Assembly: GCA_017548765.1 (NCBI GenBank)
Contig: JAFYZH010000093.1
Span: forward strand, 1 to 33,196
DNA from: Lachnospiraceae bacterium
GTDB taxonomy: Bacteria > Bacillota > Clostridia > Lachnospirales > Lachnospiraceae
Reading direction: 5' to 3'
DNA: 33,196 nucleotides
Below the pieces are notes generated by a model. The model saw nothing but the letters and a program-made list of their open reading frames with translations. It did not search any database and was not told the origin of the DNA. Positions 2,560 through 14,586 of the stretch are shown here, one piece after another. The first letter of the stretch is position 1, and every line of letters begins with the position of its first letter. The position numbers were made by a program, and so were the translations under genes.

Positions 2560-3888
2560 ATGAAGCAGGGACGTGGCAGATGGTTGTCGGCGGTGTTCGT
2601 GGCAGTGATCCTTTGGATCGTGGCAGGGGTGAGTACACGGACAGTGTATGCCGACGATGTTGTATCCGATACACAGGATGAGGACATTAAGACGGTTTTA
2701 AAGTTCCGCGATGGCGAGATCGAGGCAGAACTGAATAAGCAGACGTTCAATCGTGACAGCTCGCGGTTCCATAAGGAACTGGCTCTGTTGGCGATGGGAC
2801 TGGCTGGCGTAGCCTATGACGATGGCAGCCCGACGCTCGGAAGCGGAGAGTATTTGATCCCTGCGTATCACTCGCTGGGATTTACGGATGATAATATCTG
2901 GCTGTTCAGTTATCCGAAGAATGAACTAAACCGAACGGAGGAAGAGATCTTCACTGACAACTCCCTGGCGTTTTCCATCGCCTGTCGGGAGTTGGGCGAC
3001 CAGCTTCTGTTGGTCATGGATTTCCGCGGGTCCTCGGCGCAGGAAGACTGGGATTATAATTTCCTGGGGCTTAGCGAGACGGAGGGCCGTTCGTTCTATG
3101 GTGAGAATAATGCCTGGCCGGGCTTTATAGAGTTCCTGGAAGGCTTAAAGAAGGGTCTGAAACTGTATGTAGAGGCACATCCGGTCGTAAAGCAGGCGGA
3201 TCAGGCCGGAAAACTGGTGGCTTTCGTTGTAGGACATAGTTTAGGCGGCGCGGGCGCAAACCTGACCGGTAAGCTGCTTAACGAGGGAGATGCGGGCTTA
3301 GAGAACCTGGATCCGAGCCGCATCTTTGTATATACATTTGCCGCGCCGTTGGTATCTCTGGATGTGACCCAGGATGCAAACATACATAACGTGGTCAATG
3401 ATAACGACATCGTGCCGCACCTTCCGATCGGACGGAAGCATTACGGCGTAGATTACCATTTCTCGACAGGCAGCAGCCTGTATGAGTGCCACACGATGAT
3501 GACGTATGCGCGGGCGATCCTGGAGGATCGCGTGGATCCGATCGCGCCCGCGCTGGAGATCCTGCAGGGAGCGTTTCTAAGCCTGGTGGATGGAAAGACC
3601 GAGCCCACGACGGCGGAGGTAGCCGAGCCTACGACAGCGGAAGTGATCGAACCTACAACAGCGGAAGCGGTCGAACCTACGACGGCGGAGATCGCTAAGG
3701 TGGAGTCTACGACGGCAGAGAAAGCTACCGAGGCTGCGACCGAGGCGCCCACGGAGAGTGTGAAAGAGCCCGAACCGGATGATTATCACAACATCGTTCC
3801 GCCACTGATCCTGATCTGCGGCGGTGTTCTGATCCTGATCATTTTGGTGATCGTGATCCGGGCAGTTAAGAAAAACAAGAAAGCATGA
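2560..3888 (+). CDS. Secreted, membrane-anchored class 3 lipase
   Basis: From ATG 2560 (GGCGGTGATGG upstream) this encodes 442 residues. An in-frame ATG at 2515 exists, but it overlaps the promoter and lacks an RBS. Residues 1-31 form a signal peptide (basic start, hydrophobic VFVAVILWIVAGV, likely cleavage after VYA). The alpha/beta-hydrolase core has the nucleophile elbow VGHSLGG with Ser227. A VVNDNDIVPHLP segment supplies the likely catalytic Asp283, as in lipase class 3 (Lipase_3). The catalytic His is probably downstream, in YHF or YECH. A Thr/Glu/Pro stalk of four 8-residue repeats follows, then one transmembrane helix near the C-terminus (PPLILICGGVLILIILVIVI) and a basic tail. It is therefore a surface esterase or lipase held by a C-terminal anchor. 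The substrate cannot be told from sequence. Confidence 0.88.
   Translation: MKQGRGRWLSAVFVAVILWIVAGVSTRTVYADDVVSDTQDEDIKTVLKFRDGEIEAELNKQTFNRDSSRFHKELALLAMGLAGVAYDDGSPTLGSGEYLIPAYHSLGFTDDNIWLFSYPKNELNRTEEEIFTDNSLAFSIACRELGDQLLLVMDFRGSSAQEDWDYNFLGLSETEGRSFYGENNAWPGFIEFLEGLKKGLKLYVEAHPVVKQADQAGKLVAFVVGHSLGGAGANLTGKLLNEGDAGLENLDPSRIFVYTFAAPLVSLDVTQDANIHNVVNDNDIVPHLPIGRKHYGVDYHFSTGSSLYECHTMMTYARAILEDRVDPIAPALEILQGAFLSLVDGKTEPTTAEVAEPTTAEVIEPTTAEAVEPTTAEIAKVESTTAEKATEAATEAPTESVKEPEPDDYHNIVPPLILICGGVLILIILVIVIRAVKKNKKA
3601..3696 (+). repeat. Four tandem 24-bp repeats coding the lipase stalk
   Basis: Four consecutive 24-base units encode EPTTAEVA, EPTTAEVI, EPTTAEAV and EPTTAEIA (residues 348-379). 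A fifth decayed copy (ESTTAEKA) follows after a short insertion. The repeat is in frame and likely varies in copy number between strains, changing stalk length. Similar Thr/Glu stalks occur in the esterase at 6181 and the secreted protein at 31461. Confidence 0.9.
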
Positions 3889-6184: not shown

Positions 6185-7371
6185 TGAGTTTTAGTGATGA
6201 TGACCGCGATCCGCATATCAGTACGGCGTTGATCGTGTGCATCGTGTTGGCGGCGCTTTTGATTTCAGGAGCATTCCTGATACCGAAGATCCTGGGGGAT
6301 CGTTCGAAGGATGAGCCGGAGGAGACGACGGTGGCAGAGGTGACTACGGCAGAGGCAACGACAGAGGCAACGACAGAGGCTGTGACGGAGCCGACCGCGG
6401 CAGCGCAGCCGACTACGGAAGAAGCGACTACAGCAGCACCGACGACGGCAACACCCACCACGGAAGCGCCGACGACCGAAGAGCCGAAAACGGAAGATCC
6501 GACAAAGGAAATAGAAACATCAACGGAGGAAACTATGGAATACAAGACCTACATGGATAAGATCCGCGCAGAGTACGTAACGGAGGTACCGAAGGACGTT
6601 CAGAAGAACAACACCGGTAAACTCGAGCACATCAAGTATTATTCGAAGAAGGCTGAGAAGGAAAAAGGCGCCTATGTATGGCTGCCGCCGGAATACTCGC
6701 CGGAACAGAAGTACCCTGTATTCTACGTTAACCACGGCATCACGGGCGATGAGGGCTCCATGCTTCAGGGATTCGCCCTGACGGAGATGGCGTCAAACCT
6801 GATCCGGAGCGGAGAGGCGAAGCCCATGATCATGGTCTTCACCTTCATGTACACCAACAAAAACAAGGCAAACTGCACGGCGATCACGGCCGAGGAGACA
6901 CCGTTCTACGATGCGTTCCTGGATGACCTGACCGACAGCCTGATGCCTTACATCGAGGAAAACTATCCGGTCCTGACCGGTTTTGAGAACACCGCGATCG
7001 GCGGTTTCTCCATGGGCGGCCGTGAGTCGCTTTACATCTCCATCATGCGTCCCGACCTGTTCGGCTACGTGGCAGCCTCTTCACCGGCGCCCGGTGTCGT
7101 TCCCGGTAAGGATATGTTCATGGTACATGAAGGTTGCATGAGCGAGGATGAGTTCAAGTTCGAGAAGGATGCTATGCCGCACGTGCTGATGATCGCCGGC
7201 GGAACGAGTGATTTTGTTGTCGGGACATTTCCCCAGCAGTATCACGAACTCTTCGAGAAGAACGGAACGGAGCACATCTGGGTGAGCGTACCCGGAGGCG
7301 GACATGACGGAAGCGTCGGTATCCCGCTGTTCTACAACTTCTTAAAGTGTTTGTTTAAAGCAGGCGAGTAA
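6181..7371 (+). CDS. Membrane-anchored esterase (feruloyl esterase / esterase D-like)
   Basis: ATG 6181 overlaps the previous stop by four bases and has GGAGACGG upstream; an upstream in-frame ATG at 6133 lies deep in the previous gene and is unlikely. The 396-residue product has an N-terminal signal anchor (about 14-36, STALIVCIVLAALLISGAFLIP). A long Thr/Glu/Ala/Pro stalk follows (about 45-118), then an alpha/beta-hydrolase domain. That domain has HGITGDEG near the oxyanion region, the nucleophile elbow GGFSMGG with Ser277, probable Asp344 (GGTSDFVV) and His375 (GGGHDG). This triad layout matches putative esterases linked to xylan side-chain removal. An extracytoplasmic catalytic domain on a stalk fits the lipase in the same operon. 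The exact substrate is unknown. Confidence 0.88.
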   Translation: MMSFSDDDRDPHISTALIVCIVLAALLISGAFLIPKILGDRSKDEPEETTVAEVTTAEATTEATTEAVTEPTAAAQPTTEEATTAAPTTATPTTEAPTTEEPKTEDPTKEIETSTEETMEYKTYMDKIRAEYVTEVPKDVQKNNTGKLEHIKYYSKKAEKEKGAYVWLPPEYSPEQKYPVFYVNHGITGDEGSMLQGFALTEMASNLIRSGEAKPMIMVFTFMYTNKNKANCTAITAEETPFYDAFLDDLTDSLMPYIEENYPVLTGFENTAIGGFSMGGRESLYISIMRPDLFGYVAASSPAPGVVPGKDMFMVHEGCMSEDEFKFEKDAMPHVLMIAGGTSDFVVGTFPQQYHELFEKNGTEHIWVSVPGGGHDGSVGIPLFYNFLKCLFKAGE

Positions 7372-8649: not shown

Positions 8650-8659
8650 GGCCATCGAG

Positions 8660-8693
8660 GAACCGTCCCGGATCCCGGGGCGGTTCTTTTTTT
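8660..8693 (+). terminator. Rho-independent terminator of the mini-transcript
   Basis: Twelve-base arms (8660-8671 and 8675-8686, one G-U pair) close a 3-base ATC loop and are followed by seven T. This is a very strong intrinsic terminator. Confidence 0.93.
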
Positions 8694-8709
8694 GCAACAT
8701 CGGAAACAG

Positions 8710-12762: not shown

Positions 12763-12769
12763 GTAAAAG

Positions 12770-12798
12770 GGCAGGAGGATCGACCTCCTGCCTTTTTT
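12770..12798 (+). terminator. Rho-independent terminator after the YhaN-like gene
   Basis: GGCAGGAGG and CCTCCTGCC form a perfect 9-bp stem around ATCGA, followed by six T, eight bases after the stop codon. Confidence 0.95.
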
Positions 12799-12800
12799 GA

Positions 12801-12833
12801 ATGTGTCAAAAGGGACGGTTCTAATTGACACAT
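12801..12833. repeat. REP-like hairpin, left copy
   Basis: ATGTGTCAA and TTGACACAT are perfect 9-base arms around a 15-base loop carrying GGGACGGTTCT. A related element in the opposite orientation is at 13464-13500. Short hairpins with an ACGGTTC core and TTGACAC arms recur between genes in many Firmicutes; this comparison is from memory, not a search. Confidence 0.7.
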
Positions 12834-12858
12834 TATCAGATTATTTGTAGTTAGGGGT

Positions 12859-12940
12859 TATCATAGTGCCCGGGGGCTGTAAAGGCCGAGCCGCCTGCGG
12901 CGGTGCTTCGCAGCCTTGACAGCCCCCGGGCACTATGATA
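12859..12940. repeat. 82-bp cruciform-capable inverted repeat
   Basis: Two perfectly complementary 22-base arms (12859-12880 and 12919-12940, with a CCCGGGGGC core) flank 38 bases. Those bases fold further: AAGGC/GCCTT extends the stem after one mismatch, and CCGCC-TGC-GGCGG (12891-12903) and TGC-TTC-GCA (12904-12912) form two small hairpins at the tip. There is no T-run on either side. As DNA it could extrude a cruciform; as RNA it would be a very stable branched hairpin. Confidence 0.9.
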
Positions 12941-12955
12941 CGTGGTGATCAAGGT

Positions 12956-12984
12956 GTTGTAAGCCGGCTTACGCCGTTTACAAC
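12956..12984. repeat. Nested palindromes
   Basis: GTAAGCCGGCTTAC (12959-12972) is a perfect 14-bp palindrome. It overlaps a second inverted repeat, GTTGTAA (12956-12962) with TTACAAC (12978-12984). These alternatives are mutually exclusive folds or dimer-binding sites next to the large inverted repeat. Confidence 0.75.
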
Positions 12985-13020
12985 GGCCAATGTGGGACTG
13001 GGTGAAACTGCCTTGAAATT

Positions 13021-13432
13021 GAGAAGCCCGCCTATATGAAATTAAGGCACTATAGGAGGTTAGTTCATCGGGCGGAAGTTTGGAGAGACCGCCTATACGA
13101 AATCGAGGAGCTATAGGAGGTTAGTTCAACGGATGGAAGTTTGAGAAGACCGCCTATACGAAATCGAGGAGCTATAGGAGGTTAGTTCATCGGGCGGAAG
13201 TTTGAGAAGCCCGCCTATACGAAATTGAGGAGCTATAGGAGGTTAGTTCAACGGATGGAAGTTTGAGAAGACCGCCTATACGAAATCGAGGTGCTATAGG
13301 AGGTTAGTTCAACGGATGGAAGTTTGGAGAGACCGCCTGTAAGAAATCGAGGAGCTATAGGAGGTTAGTTCATAGGACGATAATTTGAAAAGCCTCCCTA
13401 TACGATATTCACGCGCCATAGGAGGTGAATTG
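13021..13432. repeat. Seven-copy tandem repeat of a 61-bp unit
   Basis: The block CCGCCTATA starts at 13028, 13089, 13150, 13211, 13272 and 13333, exactly 61 bases apart, with a decayed seventh copy at 13394. Each unit holds CCTATA, about 14 bases, then TATAGG(AGG), a potential hairpin, then TTAGTTCA and GGAAGTTT. The stretch between units alternates between CATCGGGCGG and CAACGGATGG forms. The period is not a multiple of three and no long frame crosses it, so it is not protein-coding. Each unit carries AGGAGGT on the + strand, identical to an ideal Shine-Dalgarno sequence. Units are conserved along their whole length, so this is not a CRISPR array. Confidence 0.95.
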
Positions 13433-13463
13433 AAAGAGAAGCAAGCTCCTTGCGTATTTCTGT

Positions 13464-13500
13464 AAATGTGTCAAATGGAACCGTCTCCATTGTCACATTT
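13464..13500. repeat. REP-like hairpin, right copy (inverted relative to left copy)
   Basis: AAATGTG and CACATTT outer arms continue inward imperfectly (TCAAATGGA with TCCATTG) around an ACCGTC core. Its reverse complement aligns with the element at 12801-12833 across the ACGGTTC core and the TTGACACATT end. The two therefore bracket the repeat block as imperfect inverted repeats of about 33 bp. Confidence 0.7.
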
Positions 13501-13504
13501 ACCT

Positions 13505-13548
13505 CTGTCACATCGGAATGTGACATTTGTCAATTCCGATTGTGACAG
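13505..13548. promoter_or_regulatory. Long palindrome upstream of the ABC transporter promoter
   Basis: Arms 13505-13518 and 13534-13548 are complementary with one bulged base (CTGTCACA...TGTGACAG outside, TCGGAA...TTCCGA inside). The centre holds TGACA-TT-TGTCA. It ends about 30 bases before the -10 at 13579, where an activator or repressor site would lie. It shares TGTCACA/TGTGACA words with the REP-like hairpins, so it may instead be another member of that family. Confidence 0.55.
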
Positions 13549-13555
13549 CGTTCAC

Positions 13556-13584
13556 TTTTGCGGGCCTTTGGGGCGGGGTATAAT
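13556..13584 (+). promoter_or_regulatory. Putative promoter of the ABC/two-component operon
   Basis: A perfect TATAAT (13579-13584) lies 54 bases before the ATPase start. No -35 matches well: TTTTGC sits at 17-base and TTGCGG at 15-base spacing. A weak -35 next to a palindrome fits an activated promoter, plausibly by the response regulator of this operon. Confidence 0.5.
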
Positions 13585-13638: not shown

Positions 13639-14586
13639 ATGGCAGAGACAGTAGTAAAGATCACGAATTTGGTTAAAAGATATAAGGAGCTCATCGCGCT
13701 GGATAATTTCAGCATGGAGATCCAAAAGGGCGAGGTGTTCGGCCTGCTGGGTCCGAACGGTTCGGGTAAGACGACGACCATCAATTGCCTGCTCACCTTA
13801 CTTTCTTACGACAACGGCGAGATCGAGTTGTTCGGGGAGAAGATGACATCGAAGCGCAGCGACCTGAAGGCGCGCATCGGCGTCGTTCCGCAGCAGGTGG
13901 CTGTGTTTGATGAATTGACCGTTTATGATAACATCGATTTCTTCTGCGGTCTGTACATCAAAGACAAAGAGACACGCAAGAAATATGTGGAGGATGCGAT
14001 CGAGTTCGTCGGACTTCAGGAGTTCAAGAAATTCTATCCGAAGAAGTTGTCGGGCGGCCTGCTTCGCCGTTTGAACATCGCCTGCGGCATCGCGCACAAG
14101 CCGGAACTCATAATCTTCGATGAGCCGACAGTCGCGGTCGACCCGCAGTCCAGAAACCGCATCCTGGAAGGCATTTCCCGTTTGAACGAGCAGGGCGCGA
14201 CGATCATCTATACGACCCACTACATGGAGGAAGTCGAGCAGCTGTGCTCGCGCATCCTGATCATGGATCATGGTAAGAAGATCGCGATCGGCACGAAGGA
14301 CGAGCTCAAGGGCATGATCAAAAACACCGAGAGTGTGATCGTGAACGCACACGGCCTCACCCAGGACTTCATCGAGAAGGTGCGTGCCCTGAACCACGTG
14401 TACGACGTGTCCTACCGCGACGATACATTGACCGTAAAGTGCAGCGGCGGCAAGCACAACATCGTACATGTTGTCGATTGCTTCGCGGACAATGAAGTGA
14501 AGTATCAGCAGATCTATTCGATCCTGCCGACACTGAATGAGGTATTTTTGGAGATCACCGGCAAGCAGCTGCGTGACAACGAATAG
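13639..14586 (+). CDS. ABC transporter ATP-binding protein (LnrL/NatA-like)
   Basis: ATG 13639 has AGGAGG upstream; an in-frame ATG at 13558 overlaps the promoter and is rejected. The product is 315 residues with Walker A GPNGSGKT (38-45), Q-loop VVPQQ, signature LSGGLL (137-142, with L where Q is usual), Walker B LIIFDEP (157-163) and the switch His in TTHYMEE. A C-terminal domain of about 90 residues follows (SVIVNAHGL...), as in ABC-2 exporters of drugs or peptides. It is followed by two permeases and a two-component system, the order seen in B. subtilis linearmycin resistance (lnrJKLMN, there with regulators first). The substrate here is not known. Confidence 0.93.
   Translation: MAETVVKITNLVKRYKELIALDNFSMEIQKGEVFGLLGPNGSGKTTTINCLLTLLSYDNGEIELFGEKMTSKRSDLKARIGVVPQQVAVFDELTVYDNIDFFCGLYIKDKETRKKYVEDAIEFVGLQEFKKFYPKKLSGGLLRRLNIACGIAHKPELIIFDEPTVAVDPQSRNRILEGISRLNEQGATIIYTTHYMEEVEQLCSRILIMDHGKKIAIGTKDELKGMIKNTESVIVNAHGLTQDFIEKVRALNHVYDVSYRDDTLTVKCSGGKHNIVHVVDCFADNEVKYQQIYSILPTLNEVFLEITGKQLRDNE

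Follow-up and report, generated by a model that had tools for sequence, protein, structure and literature searches.

The MITEs and BIMEs of bacteria are noncoding, dispersed, intergenic, palindromic and mosaic elements, and among retroelements an exchange between the two end repeats leaves a single repeat, the solo LTR. When REPs or IS110 elements move, no target duplication is expected. According to the available parts of the respective sources, 1) canonical REPs have the tetranucleotide GT[AG]G at the foot of the hairpin (PMC6006769), 2) CGTC REPs are said to be without a dedicated transposase (PMC3733652) and 3) IS1111 elements have a predicted bridge RNA in the same noncoding end that we compare with our locus below (PMC11208160; PMC11187229). 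REP/RAYT palindromes, the noncoding end of IS110 elements and tandem hairpin arrays are usually described separately. Here we report a locus that ties them together; no description of such an element was found among the open-access titles and abstracts listed on REP letters, IS110-derived repeats, orphan bridge RNA and Lachnospiraceae hairpin arrays.

The DNA analyzed, referred to as the window, is a whole stretch of 33,196 nucleotides from a Lachnospiraceae bacterium whose genome we denote G000; G001 to G005 are five further genomes of the same genus. The stretch of interest is an insert without a gene in the intergenic region between a YhaN-like gene on one side and an ABC operon on the other. 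Its outer parts are two REP-like hairpins in inverted orientation. Between them lie a long inverted repeat (LIR) of 82 bp and the small hairpin that follows it, which together we call the head, and an array of about 6.7 hairpin units of 61 bp. We conclude, with a probability of about 0.6, that three families of repeated mobile DNA are nested in this stretch as a mosaic, the parts of which are gained and lost separately. What lies between these two genes of a rumen bacterium looks like little-known mobile DNA and not like one simple transposon; it is most likely mobile DNA, and we assign it no demonstrated host function.

Relative to the sister species G004 the insert extends from 12799 to 13518, the left match stopping at 12798 and the right match starting at 13519. 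The left REP-like hairpin (12800-12834, forward strand), detected by inverted-pair search and folding, and the right one (13465-13499, reverse strand), detected by inverted-pair search and by the REPs at RAYT loci, form an inverted pair of 41 nt at 80%. The LIR (12859-12940, forward strand), recognized as an inverted repeat and from alignment, covariation and copies elsewhere, has 28-bp arms, matching at 96% over 28 nt, around a conserved core. It is followed on the same strand by the tail hairpin of the head (SL2, 12946-12990, the hairpin itself at about 12953-12988), which is delimited by our alignments A1 and A2 and by the same hairpin behind IS110 transposases, and by the array (13019-13426, forward strand; 6.7 copies by tandem repeat search), each unit of which contains a hairpin CCTATA..TATAGG. 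The flanks contribute two further structures. The intrinsic terminator of the YhaN-like gene (12765-12797, forward strand; an inverted repeat and a T run) lies outside the insert and is common to G004; it was not seen in G003 and G002, where a perfect REP with a T run replaces it (L086 at about 394-428, L087 at about 2752-2786). A hairpin found by folding at 13509-13544 overlaps the insert border; we assign it to the promoter side of the ABC operon because its 3' half is kept in G004, which has no insert. The frame of the ABC gene is listed from 13558, and the ATG at 13639 is taken as its start. The original prediction, made from the letters of the window, gave this order of parts with small differences in coordinates, and its inverted REP-like brackets correspond to the 41-nt pair. 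It also saw no reading frame of note inside, in agreement with the largest wholly internal ORF of 36 aa (those that cross the ends of 12799-13518 are up to 39 and 56 aa long).

When 12799-13560 was shuffled 100 times with its dinucleotides kept, inverted pairs of 41 nt had at best 27 matches compared to 33 observed, pairs of 28 nt at best 21 compared to 27, and 0 of the 100 shuffles reached either observed value. The whole stretch has an RNA folding z-score of -14.2 relative to 20 shuffles, and a single 61-bp array unit alone folds barely better than its shuffles (z = -1.7). No DEDD transposase is found in the insert, and PF01548 has no match in G000. Elsewhere in the window we noticed a gene with a microbial PARG catalytic domain (PF10021; 7408-8451) upstream of the metallophosphatase/SMC-like pair, and short tandem repeats within reading frames (3599-3689 and 6346-6510).

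REPs are abundant in the genus. The REP pattern (both strands, at most 2 mismatches, a few palindromic REPs being counted twice) has 40, 67, 120, 37, 36 and 19 matches in G000 to G005, respectively, and the reversed pattern used as a control has 0. The ACGGTTC core and TTGACACATT ends, which the original prediction noted as shared by the two brackets, are the common REP letters across the genus. Three of the six genomes (G001, G003 and G004) contain a Y1 transposase (RAYT) gene, and in all three loci this gene is bracketed by inverted REPs that have the same GGGGACGGTTC core but differ slightly in their stems. The draft genomes G000, G002 and G005 gave no Y1 transposase, and this absence may reflect the draft assemblies. 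The REP-flanked RAYT genes (L111, L112 and L113) were seen at one site, adjoining a greA-like gene named by eye. By eye, the GT[AG]G tetranucleotide was not seen at the hairpin foot in the REPs of the RAYT loci and in the REP pattern matches, hence the REPs described here are a variant and not canonical. The REP-core letters at 8660-8686 of the window were considered as a further copy and rejected; they belong to a separate terminator-like hairpin (GAACCGTCCCGG..CCGGGGCGGTTC with a T run, 8658-8695), which shares the core letters by chance or descent. For 39 heads the flanking sequence is long enough to look for a REP on the outer side; one lies within 100 nt in 20 of them and within 200 nt in 24, and consequently heads occur without REPs too.

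Comparison of the focal site between sisters separates the parts of the insert from each other. G004 has no insert; G003 has a REP pair only, one of them degenerate; G002 has an orthologue (REP-head-array-REP) with an extra REP; and G000, with the order REP-head-array-REP, has no second head. The site is occupied in G005 by an unrelated 870-bp stretch and in G001 by other sequence (compared on the ABC side only), both of which are, by eye, partly like a second repeat family. This family, a REP-bracketed repeat of about 300-380 bp (GTGAAAAAC..GGGGGCCCGCTTCGA..), was noticed beside heads (L027 895-1240, L029 1060-1430 and L072 670-1080), and letters like it stand at the focal site in G005 and perhaps in G001. 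At another site the order in G002 is REP-head-array-head-REP; a solo LIR stands there in G004, its left side matching the first head of G002 and its right side the second. At a site beside dapA (gene named by eye) there is no array between the heads in G002 and G005, an array in G001, and only a tail-hairpin remnant in G003. Solo LIRs, LIR pairs without an array and LIR pairs with an array all occur away from the focal site. The inner parts and the hairpins thus vary independently at the focal and other sites, the very pattern that the original prediction had set against its own reading as one element, so that the insert is bounded but mosaic.

It is in our judgment quite unlikely that the whole REP-to-REP unit is one MITE, i.e., a single non-autonomous transposon moved by a RAYT. 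The REP ends are inverted and RAYT-linked, the ends of the insert are sharp against G004, and five elements (L030, L079, L073, L092 and L099) have REPs near both outer sides, all of which agree with such a unit, but the inner parts differ between loci as well as at the same site, and heads without REPs and REPs without heads are common. What survives of the proposed bounded, MITE-like or RAYT-dependent unit is its sharp border and its mobile, RAYT-linked character, the REPs flanking the RAYT gene in 3/3 loci; its unity does not. The empty site in G004 stands as an observation, yet it may be a deletion and not the original state, because other sisters keep extra letters before the shared GTGACATTT and G004 joins the terminator there directly. 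Accordingly, the one comparison available for a target-site duplication, which showed none, is with a state that may itself be a deletion. No movement of the insert was observed in the compared genomes. The inserts of G000 and G002 are 91-95% identical and the flanking genes 82-85%, and the ABC-side flank of G000 is 97% identical to that of G003 and G004; the higher identity of the insert would fit either recent transfer or strong constraint.

Copies of the insert exist well beyond this site. A BLAST search of the insert against its own genome gave 39 matches, self included, and matches were found in all six genomes of the genus. A 22-nt head-core pattern (at most 1 mismatch, both strands), which misses variant cores, has 6, 9, 13, 1, 1 and 2 matches in G000 to G005, the sole match in G003 being the insertion sequence (IS) copy described below, and its reversed control has 0. 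A model search found a head at E<=1e-6 in 30 of 397 family genomes, 3 of the 30 in this genus; since this search scored 8 candidates per genome, copy numbers are taken from the patterns and BLAST. Scanning genome contigs with the exact head-core pattern yielded 44 named loci, ranging from Lachnospiraceae to Paenibacillus, Sporomusa and single matches in other phyla. Nine of these have an IS110 transposase or a piece of one, 19 are L123-like, 13 belong to this genus and 3 are other, where the labels are based on transposase matches and flanking-letter resemblance, and the L123-like class on flanking letters and not on the neighboring genes at each locus. Phages gave no blastn match to the insert, and viral contigs 0 matches to the exact head-core pattern. 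Most heads outside the genus among the matches listed are of a second type, in which the LIR lies inside an outer stem and no tail hairpin follows. The head of L123 lies behind a ParB-like gene (Pfam match); as read in L123 and L138, such second-type heads have a ParB-like gene on one side and on the other a gene starting MKRPLAY.., in an apparent conjugative element, and by similarity L125, L126, L139, L142 and L143 have the same setting. The arm letters of heads vary between many loci and are mostly kept within one locus between species.

The head is related to IS110 elements of the IS1111 type. The LIR and tail hairpin occur directly behind an IS1111-type transposase (PF02371, PF01548) in G003, in a Butyrivibrio proteoclasticus plasmid and in other genera, and plain blastn with the window alone retrieves both the IS110-linked copy in G003 (E = 5.2e-19) and one plasmid record from Butyrivibrio (E = 3e-11), in which the copy lies just behind an annotated IS110 transposase. 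Transposases of this IS110 lineage are present in 19 of 299 family genomes (E<=1e-60). We collected 33 IS entries, including duplicates (L254 and L124 are one and the same place, and L271 seems identical to L272); the 3' end of the transposase is intact in 27 of them, and by eye a GTCAAG..CTTGAC stem-loop, exact or slightly changed, lies behind 26 of the 27. The stem-loop is missing in L267, where the 3' end is intact, and in five truncated entries; L184 has a head, although at the cut-off used no transposase was matched there. Two other IS110 loci and the three RAYT loci of the genus have no head match.

We scored these copies with a model, R1, built from 33 sequences that include two IS110 copies, L049 (the G003 IS) and L114, and therefore the R1 matches of these two are not independent. 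The alignment A1 has 32 of the 72 rows among the matches listed, many of the 72 being the reverse strand of the same LIR; it omits L050 and L081-L083 (no intact tail), L051, which is the orthologue, and further copies, L076 and L098 among them. With R1, 25 of the 26 stem-loop IS entries score E<=1 and 12 distinct IS loci, among them L184, reach 78-131 bits. The distant IS copies, which are about 51-64% identical to L103, reach only 14-44 bits, and in 8 distant entries the better or only R1 strand is opposite to the transposase. The opposite-strand matches fit a terminal loop reversed relative to the tail by eye, and in L253, L252 and L259, more distant IS copies, the terminal loop of the stem-loop seems inverted relative to the tail. 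Because of the low scores and the opposite strand, the homology of the distant copies is based on stem, loop and tail letters compared by eye and is less secure. Judging from these sequence comparisons, we regard the head as homologous to the stem-loop behind IS1111-type IS110 transposases, with weak scores in distant copies.

The stem differs between the two settings. In the nearer IS copies it mostly has an internal loop, the broken copy L188 being nearly fully paired, and in orphan heads it is fully paired. The IS copies also contain a subterminal inverted repeat, GGTCATTACATAT, of the related IS lineage, which has no match in the insert at up to 2 mismatches and two chance-like matches elsewhere in the window. 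Since the place of the stem-loop is fixed in the IS copies, we infer that orphan heads derive from the IS and not the reverse. The head may be part of the bridge RNA, a candidate membership suggested by its placement in the bridge-RNA end. We also considered the head loop as a guide to the IS target: 7 of the IS copies, in which TAG or AAG precedes the left end, differ in their loops, which is weakly against such a role, the argument being weak because the TAG/AAG letters may belong to the IS and not to the target. The G003 IS1111-type element (L103 200-424) was observed at the base of a hairpin unit in another hairpin array (CGGTTAG^TTAGCC, the right side being deduced from the previous unit).

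The fold of the head is maintained in spite of sequence change. In 33 aligned head copies, 95.7% of cells pair and both sides have changed in 20 of 41 pairs, giving a covariation score of 0.344 compared to 0.141 in shuffles and 0.07-0.09 in slid alignments. Covariation of this strength shows that the folded strand of the head is under selection, as pure decay would not keep the fold. The selected strand may be either RNA or single-stranded DNA. We tried to decide between the two by the asymmetry of G-U and A-C mismatches, and the result is not decisive. In this genus there are 46 G-U and 14 A-C distinct events, 31 and 14 when the two richest columns are left out (p = 0.016), and 21 and 11 in the arms alone (p = 0.11); in a wider count the numbers are 43 vs 12 for this genus, 28 vs 23 for other heads and 3 vs 12 for IS copies, in which the stem has an internal loop.

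These data bear on the reading of the head, with or without the array, as a functional structured noncoding RNA of the host that was spread by mobile DNA and kept for its own function, which we hold to be unlikely while still worth weighing. The strong covariation of the stem, the related heads in other genera and the G-U excess within the genus, which is expected if the head strand is transcribed, would all suit a host RNA, but the excess fades in the arms alone and in the other heads and is opposite in the IS copies. Further results speak against it: promoter-like sites in the stretch are not above chance (1 found, 1.4 expected), Rfam has no match over the gathering cut-off in the window, insert included, and 0 matches to the heads in 20 loci (two TwoAYGGAY matches lie elsewhere in L127), the ten neighboring proteins scanned for heads outside the genus are mixed and share no common gene partner, and in sisters the element is absent from the same site or rearranged there.

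The third family is formed by the tandem arrays. Within the genus a period of 61 bp is found in the window and its G002 orthologue, L073, L092, L075, L079 and L091, and a period of about 74 bp in L030, L071 (75), L080 and L094; L030 has a second array of 63 bp. The hairpin CCTATA..TATAGG is common to four of the 61-bp loci (the window, L073, L075 and L079), and the linkers differ by eye. The unit number of one array is 6.4 in G002 but 2.4 in G001. Tandem arrays adjoin heads above chance: in 800 kb sampled from two genera, 16 tandem-array rows were obtained, of which 8 lie within 1 kb of a head compared to 4.2% of the sequence (p about 5e-7) and 6 within 300 nt compared to 1.6%, where the sample is partly on contigs with known heads, includes one 7.8-kb overlap and itself supplies the chance fraction. 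Of the 20 second-type loci, five (L148, L149, L152, L153 and L164) passed the repeat test, L164 looking irregular; L154-L156 of G239 have three copies at 63-bp spacing, and the remaining ones have no clear array. In G308, long intergenic arrays of ATGGTGGAG/TATATGCCC (L148, L149) and TTCTGTAAA (L148, L150) were noticed adjoining heads, partly as large inverted repeats. The idea of a guide and its target was rejected, as the LIR arms match their own array no better than others (mean longest match 6.4 vs 6.5 nt, 10 arm sets).

The near-perfect long inverted repeats and the unit length of 61 or about 74 bp, retained in most diverged arrays, could also be taken to mean that the stretch is a DNA-level site, i.e., a cruciform, nucleoid or recombination site selected for its shape. 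We consider this very improbable in view of the patchy presence among sisters and of arm letters that follow the locus and not one motif.

In the mosaic reading, the parts are related as follows. The outside is an inverted, RAYT-associated REP pair; a Y1 (HUH) transposase would be expected to excise these REPs and to move them in the form of single-stranded hairpins. The head inside is a homologue of the first stem-loops of the right noncoding end of an IS1111-type IS110 element, without the transposase and with the stem fully paired. The array behind it, made of hairpin units that are specific to the locus and constant in length, grows and shrinks, and in complete copies it is closed by a second, inverted head. 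Because the LIR is itself palindromic, the two inverted heads could also behave as direct repeats, and recombination between them would leave one LIR, much like the solo LTR of a retroelement. The families, the border against G004, the same-site variation, the homology and covariation of the head, its association with arrays and the REPs beside RAYT genes are observed; the transposition mechanism and the recombination routes are what we infer, and no host function would be needed. Against the mosaic reading count 1) the missing target-site duplication and movement and the possible deletion in G004, 2) the three drafts in which no Y1 transposase was found and the window copy without a second head, 3) the 19 of 39 heads without a REP within 100 nt and 4) the distant IS homology seen by eye, a covariation beyond what decay would keep and an insert identity that also fits constraint. 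A different function would follow if the heads were orphan RNA domains that escaped from IS110 and act in trans, each head RNA folding about a stem particular to its locus and binding the IS110 recombinase, with the fixed-length hairpin arrays as recombination or landing sites. This we consider a speculative and rather improbable reading; if true, it would explain the pairing of heads with arrays in several genera, the solo LIRs and the G003 IS1111-type element at the base of an array hairpin.

If the mosaic reading is right, noncoding fragments are shed by IS110 elements and go on to persist and multiply in the absence of a transposase, and some of the unexplained intergenic palindromic DNA of rumen and gut Lachnospiraceae could be annotated. 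The insert resembles bacterial MITEs and BIMEs in being noncoding, dispersed, intergenic, palindromic and mosaic, and differs from them in its nested families, its locus-specific tandem hairpin array and its solo-LIR derivatives. The likeness to solo LTRs, in that an exchange between two end repeats leaves one, is an analogy only, since there is no reverse transcription here and the route would depend on the palindromic LIR. With the noncoding region of IS1111-type IS110 elements (bridge RNA/seekRNA) it shares the head, which in the IS copies alone lies directly behind the transposase stop, in the end with the predicted bridge RNA; in contrast, the orphan copies occur without a transposase, comprise no more than the first ~135 nt and have a full stem in place of the internal loop seen in the IS. 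Finally, like REP/REPIN/RAYT (TnpA_REP) systems, it has short palindromes in many copies and inverted pairs, with the same core on either side of a Y1 transposase gene, but the core here is GGGACGGTTC where the canonical foot is GT[AG]G, and the pair encloses hundreds of bp. The REPs of this genus have GACG/CGTC inside the hairpin and yet flank RAYT genes; although they may not be CGTC REPs as meant in the available part of PMC3733652, such GACGG-core REPs beside RAYT genes bear on the claim made there that CGTC REPs are without a dedicated transposase.
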